A stretch of 64,000 bases of DNA from a virus. Positions 8,473 to 64,000 of the stretch are shown here, piece by piece. A model generated the notes under the pieces. That model searched no databases, was not told the DNA's origin, and saw only the letters and a list, made by a program, of their open reading frames with translations. The DNA lies in IMG/VR virus record IMGVR_UViG_3300020020_000003, positions 1 to 64,000 of that record. One strand, 5' to 3'. The translations under genes and the position numbers were made by a program. Each line of letters starts with the position of its first letter. Positions within the stretch are counted from its first letter, which is position 1.

Positions 8473-8545
8473 TCCGGTCGAGTTAGAAGTTGAGGTCGAG
8501 TCTTTGGTCGAGTCCTTAGCCGGCGACCGAGTCTTTAGCCGGTTG
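8473..8545. repeat. CGAGT iteron-like cluster, copy 1
   Basis: Four spaced copies of (g)(g/a)(t/c)CGAGT in 73 bp (GGTCGAGTT, GGTCGAGTC, GGTCGAGTC, ACCGAGTC). It includes the 16-mer CGAGTCTTTAGCCGGT (8528-8543), found exactly again at 12558-12573. The cluster covers the end of the zinc-ribbon gene and the gap before the 71-aa gene. Possible protein-binding or replication iterons. Confidence 0.7.
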
Positions 8546-8716
8546 ATCTATAGAAATATTCTGTACAAAGGGAGTACGTGGATTCGTCTGCAGATAGTAT
8601 AGACGCTGTCGATCGCATTTCTCTCTTTTACAGAAAGTAACACCTGCCGGTGTCAACCTGAAATTGCTTCGAACAAGGGAACTGGCTCCGCAGTTGACAC
8701 ATTTGAAGTTAGGCAC
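8516..8716 (-). CDS. zinc-ribbon protein (66 aa)
   Basis: GTG start at 8716 chosen because CGGAG lies 8 bases upstream and a promoter -10 lies about 30 bases upstream; the frame is open further but that part overlaps the promoter. Residues NFKCVNCGAS and TFCKREKCDRQR supply two cysteine pairs for zinc. The C-terminus (QPAKDSVAG) is encoded by the CGAGT repeat DNA, so its end may be shaped by the repeats rather than by protein selection. Confidence 0.65.
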   Translation of the reverse strand: MPNFKCVNCGASSLVRSNFRLTPAGVTFCKREKCDRQRLYYLQTNPRTPFVQNISIDQPAKDSVAG

Positions 8717-9449: not shown

Positions 9450-9671
9450 TCAGTAGGATGCACTGTAGATTGCGGGATCGCGTTCACCTCGGACGAATGT
9501 CTCTGCTTTCGCAAGGACATCGTTTACGTCTTGGGAGATGTATTCCAAGCAGGTGTTTCCCGAGTTCGGGTACGCACGGAACAAGAACCATCCGCCCCAG
9601 TTGTGTTTCCGAACGTGGGCGCTGTAGATTCCTTTCGGGAGTTGGGTGTAATTCCAGCTACGGATGTCCAT
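9450..9671 (-). CDS. hypothetical protein (73 aa) with structured leader
   Basis: Starts MDIRSWNYTQLPKGIYSAH; a compact, aromatic-rich beta-like protein (WGGWFLFRAYPNSG) ending in DPAIYSASY. GGAG is 8 bases upstream of ATG. Its 5' region carries one of two copies of a conserved hairpin leader, which may regulate its translation. No family assignment. Confidence 0.65.
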   Translation of the reverse strand: MDIRSWNYTQLPKGIYSAHVRKHNWGGWFLFRAYPNSGNTCLEYISQDVNDVLAKAETFVRGERDPAIYSASY

Positions 9672-9681
9672 ATCAAGTACT

Positions 9682-9741
9682 CCATTGCGAGCGGGATTGC
9701 TCGAACATGCCCCATCTTTTTATGGATGGGGCATGGGCTTG
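9682..9741 (-). promoter_or_regulatory. conserved structured leader element, copy 1
   Basis: Minus strand order: GATTGCAAGCC, CATG + CCCCATC stem, loop, GATGGGG + CATG, then TTCGAGCAATC and GCTCG just before the ribosome site. GATTGC pairs with GCAATC to close the outer stem, and CGAGC can pair alternatively with GCTCG. Copy 2 at 10330-10385 keeps the flanks but has a different, still self-complementary inner stem. The shared position directly before an SD suggests a cis-acting RNA. Confidence 0.65.
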
Positions 9742-9744
9742 CAA

Positions 9745-10068
9745 TCAATCCATCCTGCAAACTTCGAATGAGTTATCTGGCTGTTTGATAACAACCACAT
9801 CACTCGAATACAGAAGGATCAGTTCATCACGTAAATGAGTCACCGCTATTGGGATAAGCGGTGGATCACCGGGGTACTTCAGAATGTGAGTATCAGTCAG
9901 AGTAAACTTACCCTGACCGAACGGACGCCAGCCCCCGTGGATATAGCGTTCGTTAAACTGTTCAGCTGCCTTGCGCTCGTCCTCGTTAACGAGAAACGTC
10001 GGAAGGTAGGGACCCAGATGCTCTTGTGTCATCCTGTGGTGCAACAGTGTCCATATCGGATGCGACAT
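9745..10068 (-). CDS. hypothetical protein (107 aa)
   Basis: Begins MSHPIWTLLHHRMTQEHLGP; contains RYIHGGWRPFGQGKFTLTD and a hydrophobic RDELILLYSSDVVVI strand pair. GGAAG sits before the ATG and the upstream secreted-protein gene ends two bases before it. Predicted soluble, mixed alpha/beta, no recognised family. Confidence 0.65.
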   Translation of the reverse strand: MSHPIWTLLHHRMTQEHLGPYLPTFLVNEDERKAAEQFNERYIHGGWRPFGQGKFTLTDTHILKYPGDPPLIPIAVTHLRDELILLYSSDVVVIKQPDNSFEVCRMD

Positions 10069-10069
10069 C

Positions 10070-10312
10070 TTAGTCTTCCAACAGCGAGTTGACTACGCCT
10101 TCGACCGTGCGCTCTTTGCCACATTTCGTCTTGCGGAACTCCACCCACGCCGCCAACCGATTGCCTTTGCCGGGATCGACGTAGCCGACGGAGGCCTTGT
10201 GTTCCTTCCACATCTCAGAGCACTTGGAAACATCAAGCGACTTCTTCTCTGCCGCGAAGGCAGTCGTCGTCAGTGTGGCGAAAAGAGCGAAAGCACTTAG
10301 GATATTCTTCAT
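10070..10312 (-). CDS. small secreted/periplasmic protein (80 aa)
   Basis: Starts MKNILSAFALFATLTTTAFA with a typical Sec signal peptide and AxA cleavage site before EKKSLDVSKC. The mature part has two cysteines (SKCSEMW..., FRKTKCGKE) that could form a disulfide in the periplasm. Start chosen at 10312 because GGAG precedes it and the structured leader copy 2 lies immediately upstream. The role of an exported early phage protein could be host envelope modification or superinfection control, but this is speculation. Confidence 0.7.
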   Translation of the reverse strand: MKNILSAFALFATLTTTAFAAEKKSLDVSKCSEMWKEHKASVGYVDPGKGNRLAAWVEFRKTKCGKERTVEGVVNSLLED

Positions 10313-10329
10313 AGGTGTAGTTCTCCGTT

Positions 10330-10385
10330 TCGAGCTTGATTGCTCGTACATGTGGCACCGAGATGCCACATGGGCTTGCAATCAG
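10330..10385 (-). promoter_or_regulatory. conserved structured leader element, copy 2
   Basis: Minus strand GATTGCAAGCC, CATG + TGGCA stem, loop TCTCGG, TGCCA + CATG, then TACGAGCAATC and GCTCG, followed by the SD of the secreted-protein gene. The flanks match copy 1 almost exactly while the inner stem sequence differs but still pairs, i.e. compensatory change. Confidence 0.65.
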
Positions 10386-10477
10386 GGCTTCCGCCTATGC
10401 GGACGAGGTCCGCATTTCTTAACCCATTTCTCTTTATCGTGCCCGAGGAACAGGGCTTCGTCATACTCTACAATCAC
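10382..10477 (-). CDS. possible mini-gene (31 aa)
   Basis: GTG start overlaps the upstream TAG (TAGTG) with AAGGA 7 bases before it. The product MIVEYDEALFLGHDKEKWVK... ends in a basic proline tail (CGPRPHRRKP) and its TGA lies in the first bases of leader copy 2. Coupling and the ribosome site support translation; length makes it uncertain. Confidence 0.45.
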   Translation of the reverse strand: MIVEYDEALFLGHDKEKWVKKCGPRPHRRKP

Positions 10478-12475: not shown

Positions 12476-12590
12476 AGCTCGAGTCTCTGCAGGGGCTCGA
12501 GTCTTCGGTCGAGTATGAGTTCGATGGTCGAGTAGATGGTCGAGTCTTTTCTCGGCTCGAGTCTTTAGCCGGTCGAGTCTTCTTTCGATC
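12476..12590. repeat. CGAGT iteron-like cluster, copy 2
   Basis: Seven copies of (g/c)TCGAGT in about 115 bp, several extended to TCGAGTCTT, including the 16-mer CGAGTCTTTAGCCGGT (12558-12573) shared with copy 1. The reading frame through it (from 12418) would give a repetitive peptide without a ribosome site, so the DNA repeat is the likelier functional unit. Confidence 0.7.
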
Positions 12591-12786: not shown

Positions 12787-12856
12787 TCGCAAGTAGTGTA
12801 ACGGAAGCACCAGCTCCTCCAAGGCTGAGATCGGTTCGACTCCGACTTGCGAGCCA
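12787..12856 (+). tRNA. tRNA-Gly(TCC)-like gene, structurally reduced
   Basis: Perfect 7-bp acceptor stem TCGCAAG/CTTGCGA, discriminator G and genome-encoded CCA (12854-12856). D arm GTGT/GCAC, T arm TCGG-TTCGACT-CCGA. The anticodon stem CAGCT/GGCTG leaves the loop CCTCCAA, reading anticodon TCC (Gly). Odd points: C instead of the near-universal U at position 33, no base 26, and a two-base variable region, so 70 nt in total. It may be a functional tRNA, a decayed one or a tRNA mimic. Confidence 0.7.
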
Positions 12857-38573: not shown

Positions 38574-39674
38574 ATGGTCGTACCTATCCAAATCAAAAGA
38601 ACTGCGACTCCTGGTTTTAGTCCGACTGGACTTCGCCCAGGTGAGCTCTCTGTCGAGATGGCTAATCCAACTAGATTGTGGGTAGGTGTTCCATCGTCGA
38701 TTGATCCATCAGAACGAAAATTAATTGGTGGAGGTATTGCTTTAGGTGATGCCCCTCCGATGAATCCCGCAGCCGGACAATTGTGGTGGGAGACTGACTC
38801 TGGGGTTCTCTGGTTCTATTACGACGATGGGAACTCTAAACAATGGGTTCAGGTCAACAGCGGTGGAAATACCGGTGGTGGAGCGACGGGTGAATTCTTG
38901 CCACTTGTTGGTGGTAATATGTCTGGTGATATTATTATCAGTAAAGGAGCTCCGGGTTTATTTCTAAATAATACCGAAGCGTCTGCTGGTGGGCTAGTTG
39001 GTATGCTCAACAGTACACGTCGTTGGATTTTGCAGCCTGGCGACGGGACTGTTGAAGGAGGAGGAAATACAGGAACTAATTTCTTAATCTACCGTTATGA
39101 TGATCTTGGTGTTATCAACGGAACTCCTGTTCTAAAGATAGATCGTTCCACAGGTATTTCAAGATTCAGTTCGCCTATCGAGATCGGTCCTGACCCGATG
39201 CCAACCTTGGCAGCGGGAATCAAAGTCAGTTATCCGGGTACAACTGTTCAGAATGGCATTGCTCTCCGACCAGCAGCAGATGAGAGTACTGCTCTCTTAT
39301 TTTATAATGCTGCTGGAACTGCAATTGGAAACATCTATCAGACAGCACTTACTGTGGCCTACAATACTGGGTCGAGTGGTGAGCATAAGGAAGATCTCAA
39401 GGAGTTTGATTCTGGGCGCATTATTGACAGTACCAATGTTTATGATTTTGCATGGAAAGGAACTACTGATCGAAGTTATGGTGTTATTGCTCAACAAGCA
39501 ATGACAGTTTATCCAATGGCAGTTACTCATGTTAAGATGAGTGAAGGACATGATTACTGGGGTGTTGATTATTCCAAGTATGTCCCTGTTTTGCTTCGAG
39601 AGATGAAATCATTGCGAGAGCGTGTCAGCGAACTTGAATCTGCTCTTTTGAAATTACTTGGGAAGAAAATCTGA
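38574..39674 (+). CDS. tail fibre with S74-type chaperone domain (366 aa)
   Basis: N-terminal QIKRTATPGFSPTGLRPGEL and the QLWW element, middle beta repeats, and a C-terminal intramolecular chaperone (KEDLKEFDSGRIIDSTNVYD, RSYGVIAQQAMTVYP, KYVPVLLREMKSLRERVSEL). The chaperone trimerises the fibre and cuts itself off. Confidence 0.83.
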   Translation: MVVPIQIKRTATPGFSPTGLRPGELSVEMANPTRLWVGVPSSIDPSERKLIGGGIALGDAPPMNPAAGQLWWETDSGVLWFYYDDGNSKQWVQVNSGGNTGGGATGEFLPLVGGNMSGDIIISKGAPGLFLNNTEASAGGLVGMLNSTRRWILQPGDGTVEGGGNTGTNFLIYRYDDLGVINGTPVLKIDRSTGISRFSSPIEIGPDPMPTLAAGIKVSYPGTTVQNGIALRPAADESTALLFYNAAGTAIGNIYQTALTVAYNTGSSGEHKEDLKEFDSGRIIDSTNVYDFAWKGTTDRSYGVIAQQAMTVYPMAVTHVKMSEGHDYWGVDYSKYVPVLLREMKSLRERVSELESALLKLLGKKI

Positions 39675-41737
39675 TGTTTGATTTTCCTTCCGGTCCAGTT
39701 CCAGGTCAGGAATACACGTTAGGTGGCGTGAGCTACGTATGGAACGGATACGGCTGGGCAGTCAAGGTTGAAGAGGATACTGGAGGAGAAGTAATAGACG
39801 CTTATAACAAATCGGAAAGTGATGCTCGATTTGTTAATGTTGCCGGCGATACTATGACCGGTACTCTTCAGATAACAAATGGCGGTGCCTTACGGGTCTA
39901 TGTAGATGCAAACCATCAATTTCAAGCGTATAGTAATGCAGTACTGGGAGCACAACAGAGCGGTATCGGACAAGGTGGTCGTGTTGAAGTATCCAGTGCA
40001 GGTGTTCTGAGTGGGATAAAGACTTATCCCGCATTTCCATCATATAATTTATTGATTACAAATGAGGGTCCAGTAGGTTTTAAACTCGTAAGGCATGATG
40101 CTGGATCGACCCCAACTGATGGAGCACTTACAACATTATTGCAAGTTGATGGAGTAAGAGGAAATGCTAGTCTTGGTGGTGTTGCTCCATCTATATTCAC
40201 CACATATGCTGCTCCTGCGCGTATATTGAATGTGCGAACAGATAACGTACCCAGTGCGATTGCTGTTCTTGATCTTACCGGTAACGCTACGGTAGACTAT
40301 CCTATCGGTCATGTGTCATTTAGTAATCAATCAAATACTGCTGCGGATAAACGAATTGGTGCCATTGGTGTATCACGTTTTGGTAATGATGCTTCAGGAA
40401 AGATGGACTTCCTTGTATGGGAAGCTGGAACGTTTAAGACTGCTTTGAGTATATTTCCGACTGGATTGATAGAAAGCAAAGGTGATATTAAAATTAATAA
40501 GGTACAGCCTGCTCTTATTCTAGATAAGACAACCGATGCAGGAAACGTAATCTATGGACGAAAAAACGGAGTTAGTCGTTGGTATATAAATGTCGGTGCT
40601 GCTGATCCAGAAACTGGAGGTAATGTTGGTTCTGGATTTTATCTAACTCGTTGTGCAGACGATGGAAGTGTTATATCCGATGTTCTAGGTATTAGTCGCG
40701 CTACGGGTGCGATGTCATATTCAGGTGATATTGGAATTAGTGGTAATTTAACTGTCTGGGGTTCAAGCACAAATCTTAATGGACCATCCGGTCAAAGCAC
40801 GTCTCTTAATCTAGCAAAAGCAATTGCTAGCGATGTTTGTCAGTCGTATTTTAATTCAGAAGGTAAAGCTAAATGGCTTGTACGCTGGTGCGATGCTGGC
40901 GAAGGCCACATGAATTTTTATCGTTATAATGCAGATGCATCTGCTATTGTCGGAACACCGATTTCGCTTAACTGGACCAATGGTGATATAAATCTTAATG
41001 CCGGAGTAGGAACGCTCTTGCTTCAAGGAGGCAGCCTCTACGTCGGTCCTACTGCGACATTTGCTTCAGGAGCTCTTTGGGTTCATAATAATACAGCTGA
41101 CGGTACTATCTATCTTGGTAATACAGCAACCTGTTATCTGCAGTCTTCTGGTGGAGCTATGTATCTGAATGGCCCACCTTTAACTATATACCCTCAAGTA
41201 ACAATGAGTGGAATGCTTCTTGCTAATGGTAAGATATCAATCAATTCTAGTACAGGATTAATTGCTAATAGTTCTGGATATCATGCACTAGAAGTTAAAT
41301 CTGCTGGCGTAGGTAACTCAGCATTTATGGCTTTCCACATACCTGGATCATTTGCTGCTAATTTTGGTGTTGATACTGATACATTTTGGAAGGTTGGCGG
41401 ATGGAGTATGGGAGGTGTTGCGCATAAAGTATTCCATGAAGGTGTGTGCCCGAATAATTCCAACTATTTCAAATTGACTAGTGGAATGATGTACGTAATG
41501 GGCACATGTCCTGTTAGTATGGGTAATGGATGGGTTACGTTTCCAGTAGCATTTCCAAATCTGTGCATCGGTGTTGTTGTAACAGGTGTAGCGGCTTTGG
41601 GAGATGGTTCTTCAATTACTTGTAATAGTCAGGCTTTTGAACCTAGTAGATTTTTCTTTCAACCAAGATACATTAACAGTGGCGGTGCTGTCGGAGTAGC
41701 TACTCAGGAATATAGATATATAGCGTGGGGATATTGA
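39674..41737 (+). CDS. tail fibre 1 with WNGYGW anchor (687 aa)
   Basis: TGATG coupling. N-terminus MFDFPSGP...GQEYTLGGVSYVWNGYGWA is the anchor shared with three downstream fibres. Then VNVAGDTMTG repeat units and long beta-rich shaft, ending in a carbohydrate-binding-like head (FPVAFPNLCIGVVVTGVAAL). No S74 chaperone is visible; the following small genes may assist folding. Confidence 0.82.
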   Translation: MFDFPSGPVPGQEYTLGGVSYVWNGYGWAVKVEEDTGGEVIDAYNKSESDARFVNVAGDTMTGTLQITNGGALRVYVDANHQFQAYSNAVLGAQQSGIGQGGRVEVSSAGVLSGIKTYPAFPSYNLLITNEGPVGFKLVRHDAGSTPTDGALTTLLQVDGVRGNASLGGVAPSIFTTYAAPARILNVRTDNVPSAIAVLDLTGNATVDYPIGHVSFSNQSNTAADKRIGAIGVSRFGNDASGKMDFLVWEAGTFKTALSIFPTGLIESKGDIKINKVQPALILDKTTDAGNVIYGRKNGVSRWYINVGAADPETGGNVGSGFYLTRCADDGSVISDVLGISRATGAMSYSGDIGISGNLTVWGSSTNLNGPSGQSTSLNLAKAIASDVCQSYFNSEGKAKWLVRWCDAGEGHMNFYRYNADASAIVGTPISLNWTNGDINLNAGVGTLLLQGGSLYVGPTATFASGALWVHNNTADGTIYLGNTATCYLQSSGGAMYLNGPPLTIYPQVTMSGMLLANGKISINSSTGLIANSSGYHALEVKSAGVGNSAFMAFHIPGSFAANFGVDTDTFWKVGGWSMGGVAHKVFHEGVCPNNSNYFKLTSGMMYVMGTCPVSMGNGWVTFPVAFPNLCIGVVVTGVAALGDGSSITCNSQAFEPSRFFFQPRYINSGGAVGVATQEYRYIAWGY

Positions 41738-42084
41738 TGAACGAATCTGAGACCCCGTCAGGAATGGCAGATCCCGTCTTACGCTTCTATGGAGTGTTTG
41801 ACGAGGAAGGTAGAGCTGTTGGTTTCTATACGAGCGATATCTATCCACCTGTAAATGAGAATGCTCGTAGCGCAAAGATACCGTTAGAAGCTATTGAGAT
41901 CACAGAGGAGGTGTGGAAAGAATTACTTGCTAAACAAGGGTCTGCACGGTATATTGATGGTGCAATTGTCGATGTACCATTTCCACCGATACCTCCTCCA
42001 CCACCTAGTCCTATAGAAGTGATAGAAAAAGCAATCGAAGAGTTGGCTAAGGAAGTTCAAGAACTCAAACGGAGTAAGAAATGA
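41737..42084 (+). CDS. putative tail fibre assembly protein (115 aa)
   Basis: MNESETPSGMADPVLRFYGV start, YTSDIYPPVNENARSAKIPL, polyproline (PPIPPPPPSP), then a coiled-coil end (EKAIEELAKEVQELKRSKK). Such proteins directly behind fibres act as Tfa-like chaperones or fibre-tip adaptors. TGATG coupled to the fibre. Confidence 0.65.
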   Translation: MNESETPSGMADPVLRFYGVFDEEGRAVGFYTSDIYPPVNENARSAKIPLEAIEITEEVWKELLAKQGSARYIDGAIVDVPFPPIPPPPPSPIEVIEKAIEELAKEVQELKRSKK

Positions 42085-42263
42085 ACGAAGAGCAACAGGC
42101 TATTAGTCAATATGTCGAACAGAATGTTCGACTACTTATTGGTGATCTGCAGATGCAGATTCTTGTGTTGAGAGCAACCATTGCCTCGATGCAACAGGCA
42201 GAGCAGAATATCAAAACGAACGGAGCGGCGCATCCAAAAACAGAAGTCGAGCGGCGAGTATAA
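42081..42263 (+). CDS. small helical protein (60 aa)
   Basis: MNEEQQAISQYVEQNVRLLI start with ATGA overlap. Amphipathic helix throughout (QMQILVLRATIASMQQAEQN), possible coiled coil. Probably an accessory to fibre assembly. Confidence 0.62.
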   Translation: MNEEQQAISQYVEQNVRLLIGDLQMQILVLRATIASMQQAEQNIKTNGAAHPKTEVERRV

Positions 42264-42266
42264 TTG

Positions 42267-44258
42267 ATGTTCGATTTTCCTGCATCACCTTCTATCGGCC
42301 AGGAATACACGTCTAACGGTGTCTCGTACATCTGGAACGGGTATGGCTGGGCTGCGATGGAAGATGATACCGGTGGTACCGGAGGTGAGTTTGTTAACAC
42401 CTCCGGCGACATTATGACGGGTGATTTAATCATCTCGAAAGATACTCCGGGGCTTGGTCTGAATAGAGTTGGAGTACCTGACGCTCAAATTCGGGGACTG
42501 AAAGACGGACTGTCACGTTGGACTGTGGTGTTAGGAGATAATGTTGTCGAAGGGGGTGGTAATATAGGTTCTGACTTCAGAATATCTCGATATGATGATT
42601 CTGGAGGTAGGATAGGTAATCCTCTCCTGATTAGTCGTCAGACTGGTCTTATAACTATTGAAGGAGATCCCACAGTTCCTCTAGGAGTTGCAACAAAGCA
42701 ATATGTTGATAGTCATGTAGATACCGGATCGTATGTCCTTAAGACTGGCGATACAATGTCCGGTCCTTTAAACATTACTTCTGCAAGTCCATTCATTACA
42801 TTGAATAAGACTAGCGGTGCGGCATACATTCAAGGAGCAAATAATGGTCTAATTCGTTGGCGTATGAATCTCGGATTGAATGTAGCTGAAGGTGGGGCGG
42901 ATACTGGTTCTGATTTTAGTCTGGTTCGATATAGTGATGCGGCCACCGCTATCGGTGGAATTAACATTTCTCGTAAGACAGGTCTGCTTACCACAGACGG
43001 TGATATACGTATTGACAAATCCGTTCCGAAGATCACGGTTAATGGTATTGATGCTGGAGGAGCGTACCTCACAGCTATGCGCGGTGGATCTGCGCGTTGG
43101 AATCTTCTAATGGCCTATGGGGCCGGAGCAGATTTCTATATTCAGGCCTGTGATGATACTGGTACTGTTATCAATAACCCCTTGACAATCAAACGTGCAG
43201 ACAGCACGGTCGAGGTTGCCCGCGATCCTCTGCTTCCATTAGGCGTCGCCACAAAGCAATATGTCGACGCGCGAGTTGGGTCTTTTGTTCTAAAGACCGG
43301 CGATACCATGACCGGTGGTCTGACTGCACCTGCTGTCAATGTCACTGGACAGGACAGTCTTTCGCAGACTGTGGTAAACGGTGCTCACGCACGATTGGCA
43401 CAGACGGTAACTGGTACGCGTACCTGGTACACTGGGCCACAGGCAGATGGTGCGTATTACATTCGTGATGCTTCGACTAACGTGCGTATGTCGATCGATC
43501 TTGCAGGTACGGTTAGTTTTCAGGGTAATGCGGTCTACGCTGGATCTTTCAATGGTACGTTCAATGGAAATGTTAATGGAAATTGTACCGGAACTTCTGG
43601 CGGTATCGCAGCGGGTGGCATTATAGATGTGACAGCTATCGAGGGAGTCCAGTATATGGACTTCAGGTATGCAGGTCACAGTGAAGATTACTGTGCTCGT
43701 TTTCAGATTCAGAATGATCATCAGTTGACATGTTTCACTCCTCGTTTCAGTGTCGCAGGAGGGTACATCAATTCTGATACTTATATATCTTCAGTTCAAG
43801 GTTATTTATGTAATACTGGAGGAGCTGCTCCTACCTATACCTTTGCAATTAATTGGCCAGGCGGTGCTCTTTACATTAGTGGAACTTATGTTGGCAACGT
43901 AGTAGGTGGATCAGACTATCGTATTAAGAAAGACATCATTGATCTCACCAGTATGTGGGATACGGTGAAAGGATTGCGACCGATCCGATATACCCACAGA
44001 GACTACACTCCTGTTTCTCAAGTTGAAATGGAGCAGAGAACAGGAACACCATTTATTGCAGGAGATGAGATTGAACGATGGGGTTTTGTTGCGCACGAGC
44101 TTCAGGAAACGTTAATCGAAAGTGCAGCGACTGCCGTCAAAGATGCTCCTAACGCAATACAATCACCCGATCCGATGACTGTGATTGCTGCTCTGACTAA
44201 GGCACTTCAAGAAGCGATGACTCGTATTGAACAACTCGAAACGGCAACGGGAATCTAA
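42267..44258 (+). CDS. tail fibre 2 with WNGYGW anchor and S74 chaperone (663 aa)
   Basis: MFDFPASPSIGQEYTSNG and WNGYGWA anchor, repeated GDTMSGPL / PLGVATKQYVD shaft modules, and a C-terminal chaperone (SDYRIKKDIIDLTSMWDTVK, RPIRYTHRDYTP, DEIERWGFVAHELQETL). The repeats suggest trimeric coiled beta shaft. The chaperone releases itself after trimer folding. Confidence 0.87.
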   Translation: MFDFPASPSIGQEYTSNGVSYIWNGYGWAAMEDDTGGTGGEFVNTSGDIMTGDLIISKDTPGLGLNRVGVPDAQIRGLKDGLSRWTVVLGDNVVEGGGNIGSDFRISRYDDSGGRIGNPLLISRQTGLITIEGDPTVPLGVATKQYVDSHVDTGSYVLKTGDTMSGPLNITSASPFITLNKTSGAAYIQGANNGLIRWRMNLGLNVAEGGADTGSDFSLVRYSDAATAIGGINISRKTGLLTTDGDIRIDKSVPKITVNGIDAGGAYLTAMRGGSARWNLLMAYGAGADFYIQACDDTGTVINNPLTIKRADSTVEVARDPLLPLGVATKQYVDARVGSFVLKTGDTMTGGLTAPAVNVTGQDSLSQTVVNGAHARLAQTVTGTRTWYTGPQADGAYYIRDASTNVRMSIDLAGTVSFQGNAVYAGSFNGTFNGNVNGNCTGTSGGIAAGGIIDVTAIEGVQYMDFRYAGHSEDYCARFQIQNDHQLTCFTPRFSVAGGYINSDTYISSVQGYLCNTGGAAPTYTFAINWPGGALYISGTYVGNVVGGSDYRIKKDIIDLTSMWDTVKGLRPIRYTHRDYTPVSQVEMEQRTGTPFIAGDEIERWGFVAHELQETLIESAATAVKDAPNAIQSPDPMTVIAALTKALQEAMTRIEQLETATGI

Positions 44259-46588
44259 TGTTTGATTTTCCTCCATCGCCAGCACTTGGGGAAGAGTATG
44301 TCTCCGGCGGAGTGACATACTTCTGGAACGGTTACGGATGGGCTGCGAAAGCAGGAGACCCGAGCGCCTCCTTTGTCGACGTTGCAGGCGACACGATGAC
44401 AGGTGATCTGAAGATCACTAAGGCAGCTGACGATCCGATAGGACCCAATATCTTCGGTCAGCGCGATGCCATTGATCGCTGGTGCGTCCAGCTTGCCGGC
44501 ACACCTGCTGCCGATTTCTACGTCACGTATTACAACGACGCAGGTGTGGCTCAAGGTCACGCGCTAGTCGGCAATCGAGTCACTGGGCTGCTGTCGGTCA
44601 AGGGAGACCCGACTGTACCACTCGGTATTGCGACCAAGCAGTATGTTGATTCCAACGCAGGCAGCGGCGGTCTAGATCAAGCTACAGCCGACGCTCGTTA
44701 TGTCAATGTGGCCGGCGATATGATGAGTGGTAATCTTACTATCTCGACAGCGACAGCTAGTCCCGCACTCACATTAAATGGAATACCTGGAACAGGACCT
44801 CAGATTTTTGCTCGTATTAATAATGTAGCACGTTGGCAATTAATGCTCGGTGATGGAGGCGCAGAGAGTGGTGCCAATGCTGGTTCAGATATTGCACTTG
44901 GCGGTTTTGATGATGCGGGTGCCTTAATCAATTACCCACTTCGTATTAAACGATCAAGTGGTCTTGCTACTGTTGTCGGAAATCCAATTGTTCCTCTTGG
45001 TATCGCTACCAAACAATATGTCGACGGTGCTGTCGGTGCTGGATTTCTACCACTCACTGGCGGTACGTTGAGTGGTGATTTGACAATTCAGAAGGCGTCT
45101 CCATCCCTGCGATTGATAGCATCTGCCTCTGGGCAGGGCATGTCGATCATTGGAATGAGTGAGGCATTGGCGCAACGCTGGAACATGGAACTTGGCAGCA
45201 ATGACGCAGAGAGCGGAGGAGCAACTGGTGCAGGTGGTCGTAGCTTCATTCTTCATGCTTATAAGAATGATGGTAACTACATAGGTCAGGCACTCAATAT
45301 CAATCGTGAGACTCGTGCTGCTATGTTCAGCGGAGAGATTACGATTGCTAAACCACAATCCATTCTCTGGCTTAACGGTCAGTCTGGAAATGCCCGTGCT
45401 GTTGTAGGTCAGAGCAATGGAGTTTTTCGCTGGTCGATGAACCTTGGCGACTCCCAAGCGGAGAGTACAAGTAATAAAGGATCGAATTTCAATCTTATTC
45501 GTTTTGATGATGCCGGTAATGCTATCGACTCACCTATTCTTATATGGCGTGAGACTGGAATCATAGAAAGCCGTGGACAGCAGATTGCTCCCGCTACGAT
45601 TGATATGAGTAGTAACATACTCATCAACGGCGGGTTCGATATGAACCAGTTCGTCGGAACCGGTGGAATTTCTGTTGGTGGTGGAAATCTATATACTTAT
45701 TTCGCAGATGGTTGGAGGATCAATAAAGCAGGAGTATCTGCATTTGCACTGCAGACAAAAGCTCTCGGACAGGTCCCAGAATTTCGTTATGGATTTTGTC
45801 TGATTGGTATAACGGTTGCACAACCATCAATGGGAGGTGATTACGTTCTTATTGAACAACCAATTGAAGGGGCCCGCATCGCTCGTGCGCGTCAAGGTAC
45901 AGCAAATGCTACACCTATATCATTTTGTTTCCGTGGCTGTTTTCCACAAGCGGGACCTATATTAATGCGACTGGTTAGTGGTGATAACTCAGCTGTAACA
46001 GATGTCACATTAAACGTGACAACTGCAAATGTCCCTCAGTGGTTTACTGGTACTTTTGCTCCGTGTACAATTGGAGTGTGGCCTACTGATGATACAAAAG
46101 GTGCAACGCTCGTAATCTATCTTGCATTGTCTGGATCACATATTAATTGTGTTGCTGATGTATCATATCAGACAGTGATAAGTGGAGTTATGCTGGTTCC
46201 AGGCAATATCCCTCCAATGTATACACATCTGCTTGTCCGTCCTTGGTCTGAAGAATGGCAACTGTGCAAACGATACTATGAGAAATGTGGCTCGGGTTGG
46301 ACTGGAGCGTGGAGTGGTGGCACCACAGCACAAGTCTTTGGTTCATTTGAAGTTCAGAAAAGAGTAGCACCCACATTGTTTCTTTCGTCTAGTGACAATG
46401 TCTATATGGAATTATCTAATATCGGTGGCTCAGTTACGCCTCCTGGTGTTGCAACGATCGTTAATTCACAGATATCGAGACTGGGTGCGCGTGTGTCTTT
46501 TGGTAATCTAGTTAATTCCAGTGCGCCGAGTCAAGGGCCGGCTGGTCTATCATCCGATCCCATGTGTTTCGATGCGAGACTGCAATGA
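44258..46588 (+). CDS. tail fibre 3 with WNGYGW anchor (776 aa)
   Basis: MFDFPPSPALGEEYVSGG anchor, VNVAGDMMSGNLTI and PLGIATKQYVD shaft repeats, and from residue ~450 a distinct receptor-binding head (NILINGGFDMNQFVGTGGIS, TYFADGWRINKAG). The head resembles virion carbohydrate-binding modules. No chaperone domain; TAATG coupled. Confidence 0.83.
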   Translation: MFDFPPSPALGEEYVSGGVTYFWNGYGWAAKAGDPSASFVDVAGDTMTGDLKITKAADDPIGPNIFGQRDAIDRWCVQLAGTPAADFYVTYYNDAGVAQGHALVGNRVTGLLSVKGDPTVPLGIATKQYVDSNAGSGGLDQATADARYVNVAGDMMSGNLTISTATASPALTLNGIPGTGPQIFARINNVARWQLMLGDGGAESGANAGSDIALGGFDDAGALINYPLRIKRSSGLATVVGNPIVPLGIATKQYVDGAVGAGFLPLTGGTLSGDLTIQKASPSLRLIASASGQGMSIIGMSEALAQRWNMELGSNDAESGGATGAGGRSFILHAYKNDGNYIGQALNINRETRAAMFSGEITIAKPQSILWLNGQSGNARAVVGQSNGVFRWSMNLGDSQAESTSNKGSNFNLIRFDDAGNAIDSPILIWRETGIIESRGQQIAPATIDMSSNILINGGFDMNQFVGTGGISVGGGNLYTYFADGWRINKAGVSAFALQTKALGQVPEFRYGFCLIGITVAQPSMGGDYVLIEQPIEGARIARARQGTANATPISFCFRGCFPQAGPILMRLVSGDNSAVTDVTLNVTTANVPQWFTGTFAPCTIGVWPTDDTKGATLVIYLALSGSHINCVADVSYQTVISGVMLVPGNIPPMYTHLLVRPWSEEWQLCKRYYEKCGSGWTGAWSGGTTAQVFGSFEVQKRVAPTLFLSSSDNVYMELSNIGGSVTPPGVATIVNSQISRLGARVSFGNLVNSSAPSQGPAGLSSDPMCFDARLQ

Positions 46589-46965
46589 GTGAATATCAAC
46601 TCACTACAACTGATTATATAATTCGCACGAGCGACGGTGCTCATATTCCACCTGATCCTCATAACGCGGATCGTATGGCTTATGAAACATGGCTCGCTGA
46701 AGGTGGAGTACCTGATCCTGCTGCACCAACCCCTCCGCTTGTGATGCAACGGGATGCAAATGAACGTATCGATGCTGGTATAGCAGCATCGCTTACTGTT
46801 GCTAAAGATGCGTCAGAAGCTTTGCACGCAATCTCATCTGGTTTTAATCCACAGACTTTTGCAGTGTTTCTATTACAGATGAAGATTATGACAGATGCTT
46901 TCGTTGCTATGCTACAGGCGCAGGCTACTACGACAACAGACGAACGACCGAAACAGGACATCTAA
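46585..46965 (+). CDS. putative fibre assembly/adaptor protein (126 aa)
   Basis: MSEYQLTTTDYIIRTSDGAH start; HNADRMAYETWLAEGGVPDP is the C-terminal Tfa-like 'YxxWxAxGxxPDP' motif. Helical C-terminus (AVFLLQMKIMTDAFVAMLQA). ATGA-type overlap with fibre 3, so it likely serves that fibre. Confidence 0.72.
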   Translation: MSEYQLTTTDYIIRTSDGAHIPPDPHNADRMAYETWLAEGGVPDPAAPTPPLVMQRDANERIDAGIAASLTVAKDASEALHAISSGFNPQTFAVFLLQMKIMTDAFVAMLQAQATTTTDERPKQDI

Positions 46966-46967
46966 TC

Positions 46968-48281
46968 ATGGCTATTGATTTTCCATCTAATCCAGTTCTG
47001 GACCAGGTCTACAAGGACCCGCTCACAGAGATTGAATTCAAGTGGAACGGATATGGATGGGATGCAAAGCCAGTTCCTCCTTCCTATAGTCAGGAGGAGT
47101 CTGACGCTCGCTTTGTTCATATCACCGGCGATCTAATGAAAGGAGTTCTCTACCATCCGTTCACACCGACTGTTCCTGACCATGTTGCTAATAAAAGATA
47201 TGTTGATATGGTTATTGAGATGCTTCCAACGCCGGAAGAACCTGGAATTAGTCAAGCTGCTGCCGATGCACGATATGTTAACATTACCGGCGATGCGATG
47301 ACAGGCTATCTGTCCTTGCATGCGCTTCCGACCGATCCGATGCATGCCTCGACTAAACAATACGTCGATCAGGCCATTGCTGCGATTCCTCCTCCTGCTC
47401 AGAGTGGAATTAGCCAAGGTGATGCTGATGCGCGCTACGTCAATATAACCGGCGACACGATGTCGGGTGGACTTCAGATTAATTCAAATCTTGGAGTCGC
47501 GGGGCGTACAGATACGAATTATATCTCAAACGTTGGAGACATGGATAATTCTGGCCAGATGCGTATGAATACGATTGTCTGTGCCAGCTCGTCGACGTTC
47601 AACGGTCACATGTTCAGTAACTATGGCCGTTTCTCCATGTTCGCTAATAATAATCCTTGCGTTCAACTCTTTCACTCAACTGGTTCGTCATTTGGGCTTT
47701 GGTCTACTCAAGGTCCGGATTTTTATATGGCAATGGGTAACACCGACGGAAATGGAAATTCTTTGGATGCTATGTGGTGGGTCAATGGCGCAAAGGTTCA
47801 GGCTTGGTCAAACCAGGCTTATAAGCCTGCGGGTGGTGCCTGGTTTGCATCTTCTGATGCACGCATCAAGAATGTTCTCGGAAATTACGAAGGCGGTCTT
47901 ACTCAGATTCTTTCGATACAGCCAGTTCGATACAAATATAGAGGTAATGATACAGCCAGAACACCAGAGCATCATGTCGATCTTGATGAAAATCATAATC
48001 GCATGCCGACGCCGCAAACTCCCCCTGCGGCTCCTTATGGAAACAGTCCACACTATATGGTGGCAATTGCTGATAAAGAATTTATAGGTCTTGTTGCTCA
48101 AGATGTCGAAACGATTATGCCAGAGATGATTGTAATAAATCCAGGCATGATTGATGGAGTTCTGGTCTCAGATCTTCGAGATATAGATTCAAGTGCATTG
48201 ACTTACGCTCTGATCAATGCCGTCAAAGAACTTAACGCCAAGGTCGAGGCGTTAGAAGCTCAACTGGCTGCTCGCAGCTGA
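46968..48281 (+). CDS. tail fibre 4 with anchor and S74 chaperone (437 aa)
   Basis: MAIDFPSNPVLDQVYKDPLT and KWNGYGWDAK anchor, two PTDPMHASTKQYVD-type modules, and a C-terminal S74 chaperone (SSDARIKNVLGNYEGGLTQI, QPVRYKYRG, FIGLVAQDVETIMPEM). A His-rich loop lies in the chaperone (PEHHVDLDENHN). Confidence 0.86.
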   Translation: MAIDFPSNPVLDQVYKDPLTEIEFKWNGYGWDAKPVPPSYSQEESDARFVHITGDLMKGVLYHPFTPTVPDHVANKRYVDMVIEMLPTPEEPGISQAAADARYVNITGDAMTGYLSLHALPTDPMHASTKQYVDQAIAAIPPPAQSGISQGDADARYVNITGDTMSGGLQINSNLGVAGRTDTNYISNVGDMDNSGQMRMNTIVCASSSTFNGHMFSNYGRFSMFANNNPCVQLFHSTGSSFGLWSTQGPDFYMAMGNTDGNGNSLDAMWWVNGAKVQAWSNQAYKPAGGAWFASSDARIKNVLGNYEGGLTQILSIQPVRYKYRGNDTARTPEHHVDLDENHNRMPTPQTPPAAPYGNSPHYMVAIADKEFIGLVAQDVETIMPEMIVINPGMIDGVLVSDLRDIDSSALTYALINAVKELNAKVEALEAQLAARS

Positions 48282-63625: not shown

Positions 63626-64000
63626 CTATTTCATCCCAAGAAATTCCGAACGAGCGGAGTCTTCGGTCTTAAACACACCACGTAGAGCACTCGTGACAGT
63701 GTAGTGTCCCTGTTGACAGATGCCTCGCGACTCCATACACAGGTGACGGGCCCGCACTATAACGCCACAACCCAGAGGGTTCAGTGCTTCACTAATGGCG
63801 TCAGCGATTTGACACGTCAGGCGTTCCTGTACTTGCAGGCGGCGGGAGTAGATCTGTAGTAACCGCCCGAGCTTACTCAATCCAACAATACGTTTGTGAG
63901 GTAGGTAACCTATTGTCGCAGTGCCAAAGAATGGAGCAAGATGGTGTTCGCAATGGGAATAGAAAGGTAGATCTTTGATTACGACCATCTCGTCTACACC
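63626..64000 (-). CDS. folE: GTP cyclohydrolase I, 5' end outside window
   Basis: Frame open from the window edge to TAG at 63626; first visible residues [20 protein letters not shown] lead to LAPFFG, then [21 protein letters not shown] and [18 protein letters not shown] (Cys/His) and the later Cys coordinate zinc. The enzyme makes dihydroneopterin triphosphate, first step of the preQ0/7-deazaguanine pathway, consistent with dpdA. The N-terminus, about 70-90 residues, is missing. Confidence 0.93.

Follow-up and report, generated by a model that had tools for sequence, protein, structure and literature searches.

In a 64,000-nucleotide stretch of viral DNA (positions 1 to 64,000 of IMG/VR record IMGVR_UViG_3300020020_000003; hereafter the window), the minus strand twice carries the same short flanking sequences around inner stems of different sequence, each time shortly before a small gene. 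A reading made from the sequence alone had taken this for a two-copy structured leader RNA and a candidate cis-regulatory element without a name. The locus raises the question of whether such an RNA exists, how widely it occurs and what it might do. We found a conserved phage intercistronic RNA that folds on the sense strand, contains two competing helices (P1 and P3) and sits between a stop codon and a Shine–Dalgarno (SD) sequence; from these properties we infer any function that it may have. The features of the two copies and of the adjoining genes are as follows.

10382–10477, minus strand: ORF upstream of copy A, 31 aa with a GTG start, whose TGA stop overlaps P1 (read from the sequence)
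10321–10384, minus strand: copy A of the element; covariance-model scores of 72.1 bits (R1) and 61.2 bits (R2)
10378–10383, minus strand: copy A, P1 5' strand GATTGC (sequence, covariation)
10349–10372, minus strand: copy A, P2 hairpin CATGTGGCAT-CTCG-GTGCCACATG (sequence, covariation)
10338–10343, minus strand: copy A, P1 3' strand GCAATC (sequence, covariation)
10331–10346, minus strand: copy A, P3 hairpin CGAGC-AATCAA-GCTCG, which excludes P1 (covariation, folding)
10323–10326, minus strand: SD sequence GGAG of the 80-aa gene (sequence)
10070–10312, minus strand: gene downstream of copy A, 80 aa with a signal-peptide-like N-terminus
9745–10068, minus strand: gene upstream of copy B, 107 aa, whose TGA overlaps P1
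9678–9747, minus strand: copy B of the element, in the order P1, internal loop, P2, internal loop, P1', P3' and SD; covariance-model scores of 84.2 bits (R1) and 64.7 bits (R2, filters off)
9741–9746, minus strand: copy B, P1 5' strand GATTGC (sequence, covariation)
9706–9735, minus strand: copy B, P2 hairpin CATGCCCCATC-loop-GATGGGGCATG (sequence, covariation)
9695–9700, minus strand: copy B, P1 3' strand GCAATC (sequence, covariation)
9688–9703, minus strand: copy B, P3 hairpin CGAGC (9703–9699)-AATCCC-GCTCG (9692–9688), which excludes P1 (covariation, folding)
9680–9683, minus strand: SD sequence GGAG of the 73-aa gene (sequence)
9450–9671, minus strand: gene downstream of copy B, 73 aa (MDIRSWNY...), without a Pfam family

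Within the window, the pattern GATTGCAAGCCCATG..CATGTWCGAGCAATC matched twice compared to 0.00 matches expected from 100 dinucleotide shuffles, which bears out the two minus-strand copies with conserved flanks, and the GCTCG that was said to follow both is present (minus-strand cores at 9695–9746 in copy B and 10338–10383 in copy A). The inner stems differ yet pair, as the sequence-only reading had stated, with CATGCCCCATC opposite GATGGGGCATG in one and CATGTGGCAT opposite GTGCCACATG in the other. It was also right that each copy ends at an SD sequence, GGAG, followed by ATG (73 aa from 9671 and 80 aa from 10312). What it overlooked is a third helix: the trailing GCTCG pairs with CGAGC to form P3, which competes with P1. 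Because both copies start within the TGA with which an upstream ORF ends (in copy B, the GA of GATTGC is part of the TGA at 9745–9747), the element is structured but intercistronic, and not a 5' leader. No third copy was found in the window above chance using a relaxed single-arm search, or using a covariance-model search with filters off. No sigma-70-like promoter was found near the element on the same strand, and no promoter- or terminator-like sites were found on its strand in the region.

Further copies were collected using eight scans of 2.9 million viral contigs, with patterns relaxed step by step, and two covariance models, R1 (built on 11 copies) and R2 (built on 46), run over whole records. 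This yielded 48 distinct copies from 39 phage records of IMG/VR, including the window's own. The term 'two-copy' is thus accurate for the window's phage only, and the covariance-model search in further phages, which had been proposed as a check, returned many more copies, with covariation. P2 pairing sharply separated true copies (at least seven of the first nine pairs) from chance pattern matches (six or fewer). Parts of P1 or P3 were demanded by the collecting script and some of the patterns; P2 was never demanded by one of the patterns, and neither four of the scans nor the search with R1 demanded P3; the support for every helix is thus independent of the search that found it. The final two pattern scans gave only chance matches beyond the copies already known, so for these exact patterns IMG/VR is nearly exhausted. 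The largest set was found in record G005, with 16 copies at E<1e-5 in a 7.7-kb stretch of the minus strand (24.5–32.2 kb), followed by G006 with seven and G007–G009 with six each, while most records carried one or two. Judging by position, the copies would lie in the early region.

Searches of other sequence collections gave no further copies. A single pattern scan across about 85,000 genomes of bacteria and archaea produced 44 exact-pattern matches, of which not one had a true copy's structure, and R2 returned nothing from six whole bacterial genomes (without a positive control); based on these searches, we rejected a bacterial origin of the element. The element was not found in six cultured relatives of the window's phage (NP1, MMDA13, MiCath, Iggy, HD01 and Baskent_P4_1), and blastn searches for copies in cultured relatives were empty or gave chance hits. 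No Rfam 15 family matched at its gathering threshold, with the best sub-threshold match reaching 18 bits compared to a cut-off of 90. No description of the element was found in the resources searched, RNA family databases included.

The element is roughly 60 bases long. In the window, P1 reads GATTGC/GCAATC; elsewhere it is GAATGC/GCATTC, ATTCGC/GCGAAT, GATCGC/GCGATT or GATGC/GCATC. P2 is a hairpin of 9–11 pairs that is free in sequence, and P3 is CGNGC/GCNCG with a loop of mostly six bases. In an alignment of 46 copies, 95.5% of P1 and P2 cells were paired compared to 67.9% in shuffles (0 of 500 reached the observed value), and there were 157 double-sided changes compared to 38, which upholds the earlier claim of selection on RNA structure. 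Compensatory changes were found at 13 of the 15 pairs (4/6 in P1 and 9/9 in P2), and the pairing was lost when the partner column was slid by 1 to 3. P3 was paired in 99.5% of cells, with a middle pair that covaries (UA in 29 copies, AU in 15, CG in 2 and no mismatches).

The 5' strand of P3 starts on the 3' side of the internal loop. Between two and six bases in the 3' strand of P1 serve both P1 and P3, so the two helices are mutually exclusive. At L010:6623, an 8-bp P3 (GTACAATC/GATTGTAC) consumes the entire P1 3' strand, with P1 position 7 changed alongside, and P3 is also extended in L019 (7 bp) and L014 (6 bp). A pseudoknot with simultaneous P1 and P3 was considered and is disfavoured, because these extended helices leave little or nothing of the P1 3' strand free. 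The internal loop contains A9.G47 and G10-C46 in 48 of 48 copies, a constancy that the design of the searches partly imposed. Positions 11/45 and 12/44 were Watson–Crick in only 3/48 and 1/48 copies compared to 15.3 and 9.4 in shuffles; they vary yet avoid Watson–Crick pairs, which indicates that the shape of the loop is under selection. In P2, read on the mRNA sense strand, G-U outnumbered C-A by 21 to 3 (p = 0.0003), a count slightly biased by a pairing filter that accepted G-U, although one C-A alone excluded no copy; from this excess we conclude that it is the sense strand that folds. A weak relative at L014 11543–11606 (minus strand), preceding a 407-aa gene, has a fully paired internal loop and appears to have kept a P1/P3-like competition (GAAGC/GCTTC).

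Between the upstream stop codon and the SD sequence of the next gene, the element takes up the gap; it is always in sense orientation to that next gene. An ORF of at least 40 aa ends between –12 and +5 nt of P1 in 40 of the 45 copies with usable upstream sequence, with the TGA most often inside P1, and the end of P3 lies a median of 18 nt from the start codon (12–22 nt in 42 of 47 measured copies). At L135 (G005:24508–24570), the upstream ORF passes P1 and terminates in the P2 loop, where an upstream ribosome would consequently open the whole element. Copies in G005 (for example, L010 5868–5933) are followed, within the next ~25 nt, by an additional hairpin that has the SD sequence in its hexaloop, UAGGAG; its stem covaries (UUGCC/GGCAA, CAGCC/GGCUG, UGGUC/GGCCA and AUGACC/GGUCAU), and its loop resembles CsrA/RsmA sites.

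The carriers are uncultured phages whose nearest isolates are very different from one another. The 17 records compared form about 11 groups with few or no common proteins and span a G+C content of 0.42 to 0.63. No protein cluster was present in more than 5 of the 17 records using BLAST at 1e-5, a threshold that a shared phage protein could escape if it is small or evolves fast, and a phage-encoded regulator was rejected on this result. By its protein sequences, the window's phage is a relative of the Queuovirinae: its DNA polymerase shares about 53% identity with the NP1/PaMx25 group, and its primase 36%. A GTP cyclohydrolase gene or fragment (63626–63988, minus strand) would fit 7-deazaguanine DNA modification in such a relative.

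Genes downstream of the element are small and functionally unrelated, including secreted cysteine proteins, DUF2786, DUF932 and Gp88. Small secreted proteins with two conserved cysteines and no Pfam family follow it in the window (10070–10312), L147, L151 and L157. The cis position before diverse genes and the lack of an Rfam 15 family agree with the description of an unnamed cis-regulatory RNA; that it regulates these genes we infer. Genes are gained and lost directly beside the element among close relatives. When L001, L003 and L012 are compared to window positions 9600–9790, another gene follows the start codon of copy B and the 73-aa gene is shifted downstream.

A trans factor, if there is one, should belong to the host, because about 11 lineages carry the element without a common protein; given neither a shared phage protein nor a downstream pathway, the acting factor would most simply be host machinery. 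We consider it probable that the copies represent an undescribed, phage-specific class of bistable intercistronic RNA, present in unrelated lineages and exerting control gene by gene via the host ribosome or RNase alone.

The explanation that we favour, tentatively and from the architecture of the element, is a candidate mRNA-processing module with P1, the loop and P2 as its substrate. In the intact polycistronic transcript, these parts would form a long imperfect hairpin, and a host double-strand-specific endonuclease, RNase III being the likeliest, would cut the conserved internal loop. The P2 hairpin would become the 3' end of the upstream message, while the downstream message would start at the 3' side of the loop, where the untethered P1 would yield to P3. 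As a 5'-terminal stem–loop just before the SD sequence, P3 would then cap the downstream product, and each copy would break up a polycistronic early message so that every unit is protected at its two ends.

Support for processing comes from the P3 5' strand, which starts exactly at the loop, from the energetics expected after a cut and from phage T7 sites that are built alike. The covariation of the helices, folding on the sense strand, the preserved loop, the unrelated functions of the downstream genes and the lack of promoter- or terminator-like sites on the strand in this region also count in its favour. Based on RNAfold, the P1 state lies below the P3 state by a median of 2.2 kcal/mol, and the predicted probability of P3 has a median of 0.98 when the P1 5' strand is blocked. 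After the cut, P1 would be reduced to a duplex of 7 bp, with a median of –7.3 kcal/mol at 1 M compared to –6.2 for the P3 hairpin, so P3 should win at cellular concentration. The RNase III sites of T7 (R0.3, R0.5, R1, R1.1 and R1.3) are likewise intercistronic, with a lower stem, an internal loop and an upper stem of about 10 bp, and their cut positions fall within the internal loop. They occur several per genome in the early region of T7; the element has 16 copies in G005 and seven in G006, but one or two in most records. When R1.1 was folded here, its downstream product could refold into a 5' hairpin of its own, like P3. However, T7 sites conserve the sequence of the upper stem whereas P2 covaries freely (9/9 pairs) and the loop and P1/P3 are conserved instead, which weakens the processing explanation, and the element model found no match in T7. 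It is also weakened by the link between P1 and the stop codon and the fixed spacing from P3 to the start codon, which suit a translational switch equally well, and by copies that lack a convincing downstream gene within the contig (L019, L144 and L154) or a clear upstream ORF end nearby (L142, L144 and L152).

Such a switch, possible though doubtful in our view, would be coupled to the ribosome: a terminating ribosome would cover the P1 5' strand, P3 would form and downstream initiation would change, so that neighbouring genes are coupled or uncoupled. This accounts for the position of the stop codon better than a processing module does, both in the 40 of 45 copies with an ORF ending at P1 and in copy A, where the 31-aa ORF does likewise. 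The high predicted probability of P3 once the P1 5' strand is blocked is also in its favour, as is the end of P3, which coincides with the upstream edge of the 30S footprint. Nonetheless, predicted SD accessibility was the same in the P1 and P3 states (0.46 versus 0.48, p = 0.49), P3' varies while the SD sequence stays GGAG-like and so is not an anti-SD strand, a few copies lack an adjoining upstream ORF, and proximity to stop codons may merely mirror compact genomes. An anti-SD role for GCUC was rejected given the variation of P3' (GCUCG, GCACG or GCGCG) and the equal accessibility, and simple SD sequestration is not supported by the folding predictions. A host RNA-binding protein or small molecule that binds the internal loop, locks P1 and sets translation of the next gene, in the manner of a riboswitch or translational operator, is unlikely: a loop that preserves shape but not sequence does point to specific recognition, and exclusive P1 and P3 resemble an aptamer with its expression platform, but the downstream genes have no common pathway, no phage protein is shared, the logic of SD sequestration is absent and the strict pattern gave no copy in host genomes.

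The remaining explanations are much less credible. New genes immediately after copy B in L001 and L003, the joint presence or absence of gene and element elsewhere among related phages and the cassette-like array in G005 would all suit a site acting as DNA (in recombination, as a cassette or as a replication hairpin); this is very improbable given the G-U excess on the mRNA sense strand, the constant sense orientation and fixed distance to the start codon, and the SD hairpins attached in G005, and ordinary gene turnover accounts for the swaps. We regard a new self-cleaving ribozyme with the conserved internal loop as its core as extremely improbable: a small conserved core between helices, several intergenic copies and a P3 left free for the 3' product are compatible with one, but no Rfam ribozyme matched and the core comprises just a handful of invariant bases, a smaller number than known small ribozymes have. 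Chance similarity or a recent functionless duplication, for which the mere two copies in the window could be cited, is refuted and carries practically no weight, as 0 copies were expected, covariation exceeded that of all 500 shuffles and P2 pairing split true copies (≥7/9) cleanly from chance matches (≤6/9).

Several known systems share parts of this design. Mutually exclusive helices, a conserved internal loop and an adjoining SD sequence are also found in translational riboswitches and attenuator leaders; unlike these, the element shows no common downstream pathway or metabolic theme, no anti-SD strand and no change in predicted SD accessibility, and it is intercistronic with many copies per genome. 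The put antitermination RNAs of HK022 are short and paired, occur more than once per genome in phage early operons and consist of two side-by-side stems upstream of terminators; in the element, by contrast, P1 overlaps P3, each copy stands before a single gene and the strand showed no terminators. Integron attC sites directly follow a stop codon and have a conserved structure with a variable middle, in arrays of small ORFs, but their RYYYAAC/GTTRRRY boxes are absent from the conserved columns of the element, whose G-U pattern is that of a sense-strand RNA. To our knowledge, few classes of cis-acting RNA recur many times per phage and across unrelated phages. Structured RNAs of phages or metagenomes were identified by covariation previously, including the c4 antisense RNA, manA and wcaG motifs (Weinberg et al. 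2010; PMC2864571); the downstream genes here are not their metabolic ones, and Rfam 15 was unmatched.

The element offers a sharp internal-loop signature and two competing helices, each with covariation, and R2 provides a calibrated model for finding further copies. The readings predict different things, namely cleavage within the loop or a need for translation upstream. If this is true, phages would share an RNA module, readable by the host, for controlling genes singly inside operons.

The window contains three other features of note. Direct repeats like GTCGAGTCTTYGG cluster at 8494–8546 and 12486–12588. A tRNA-Gly (TCC) gene (12787–12856, plus strand) lies between the divergent early and late regions. 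Finally, four tandem proteins with similar N-termini (MFDFPxxP..G..Y or MAIDFPSNP..YxW(K)NGYGW) are encoded at 39674–48281 (plus strand) and are probably tail-fibre paralogues.
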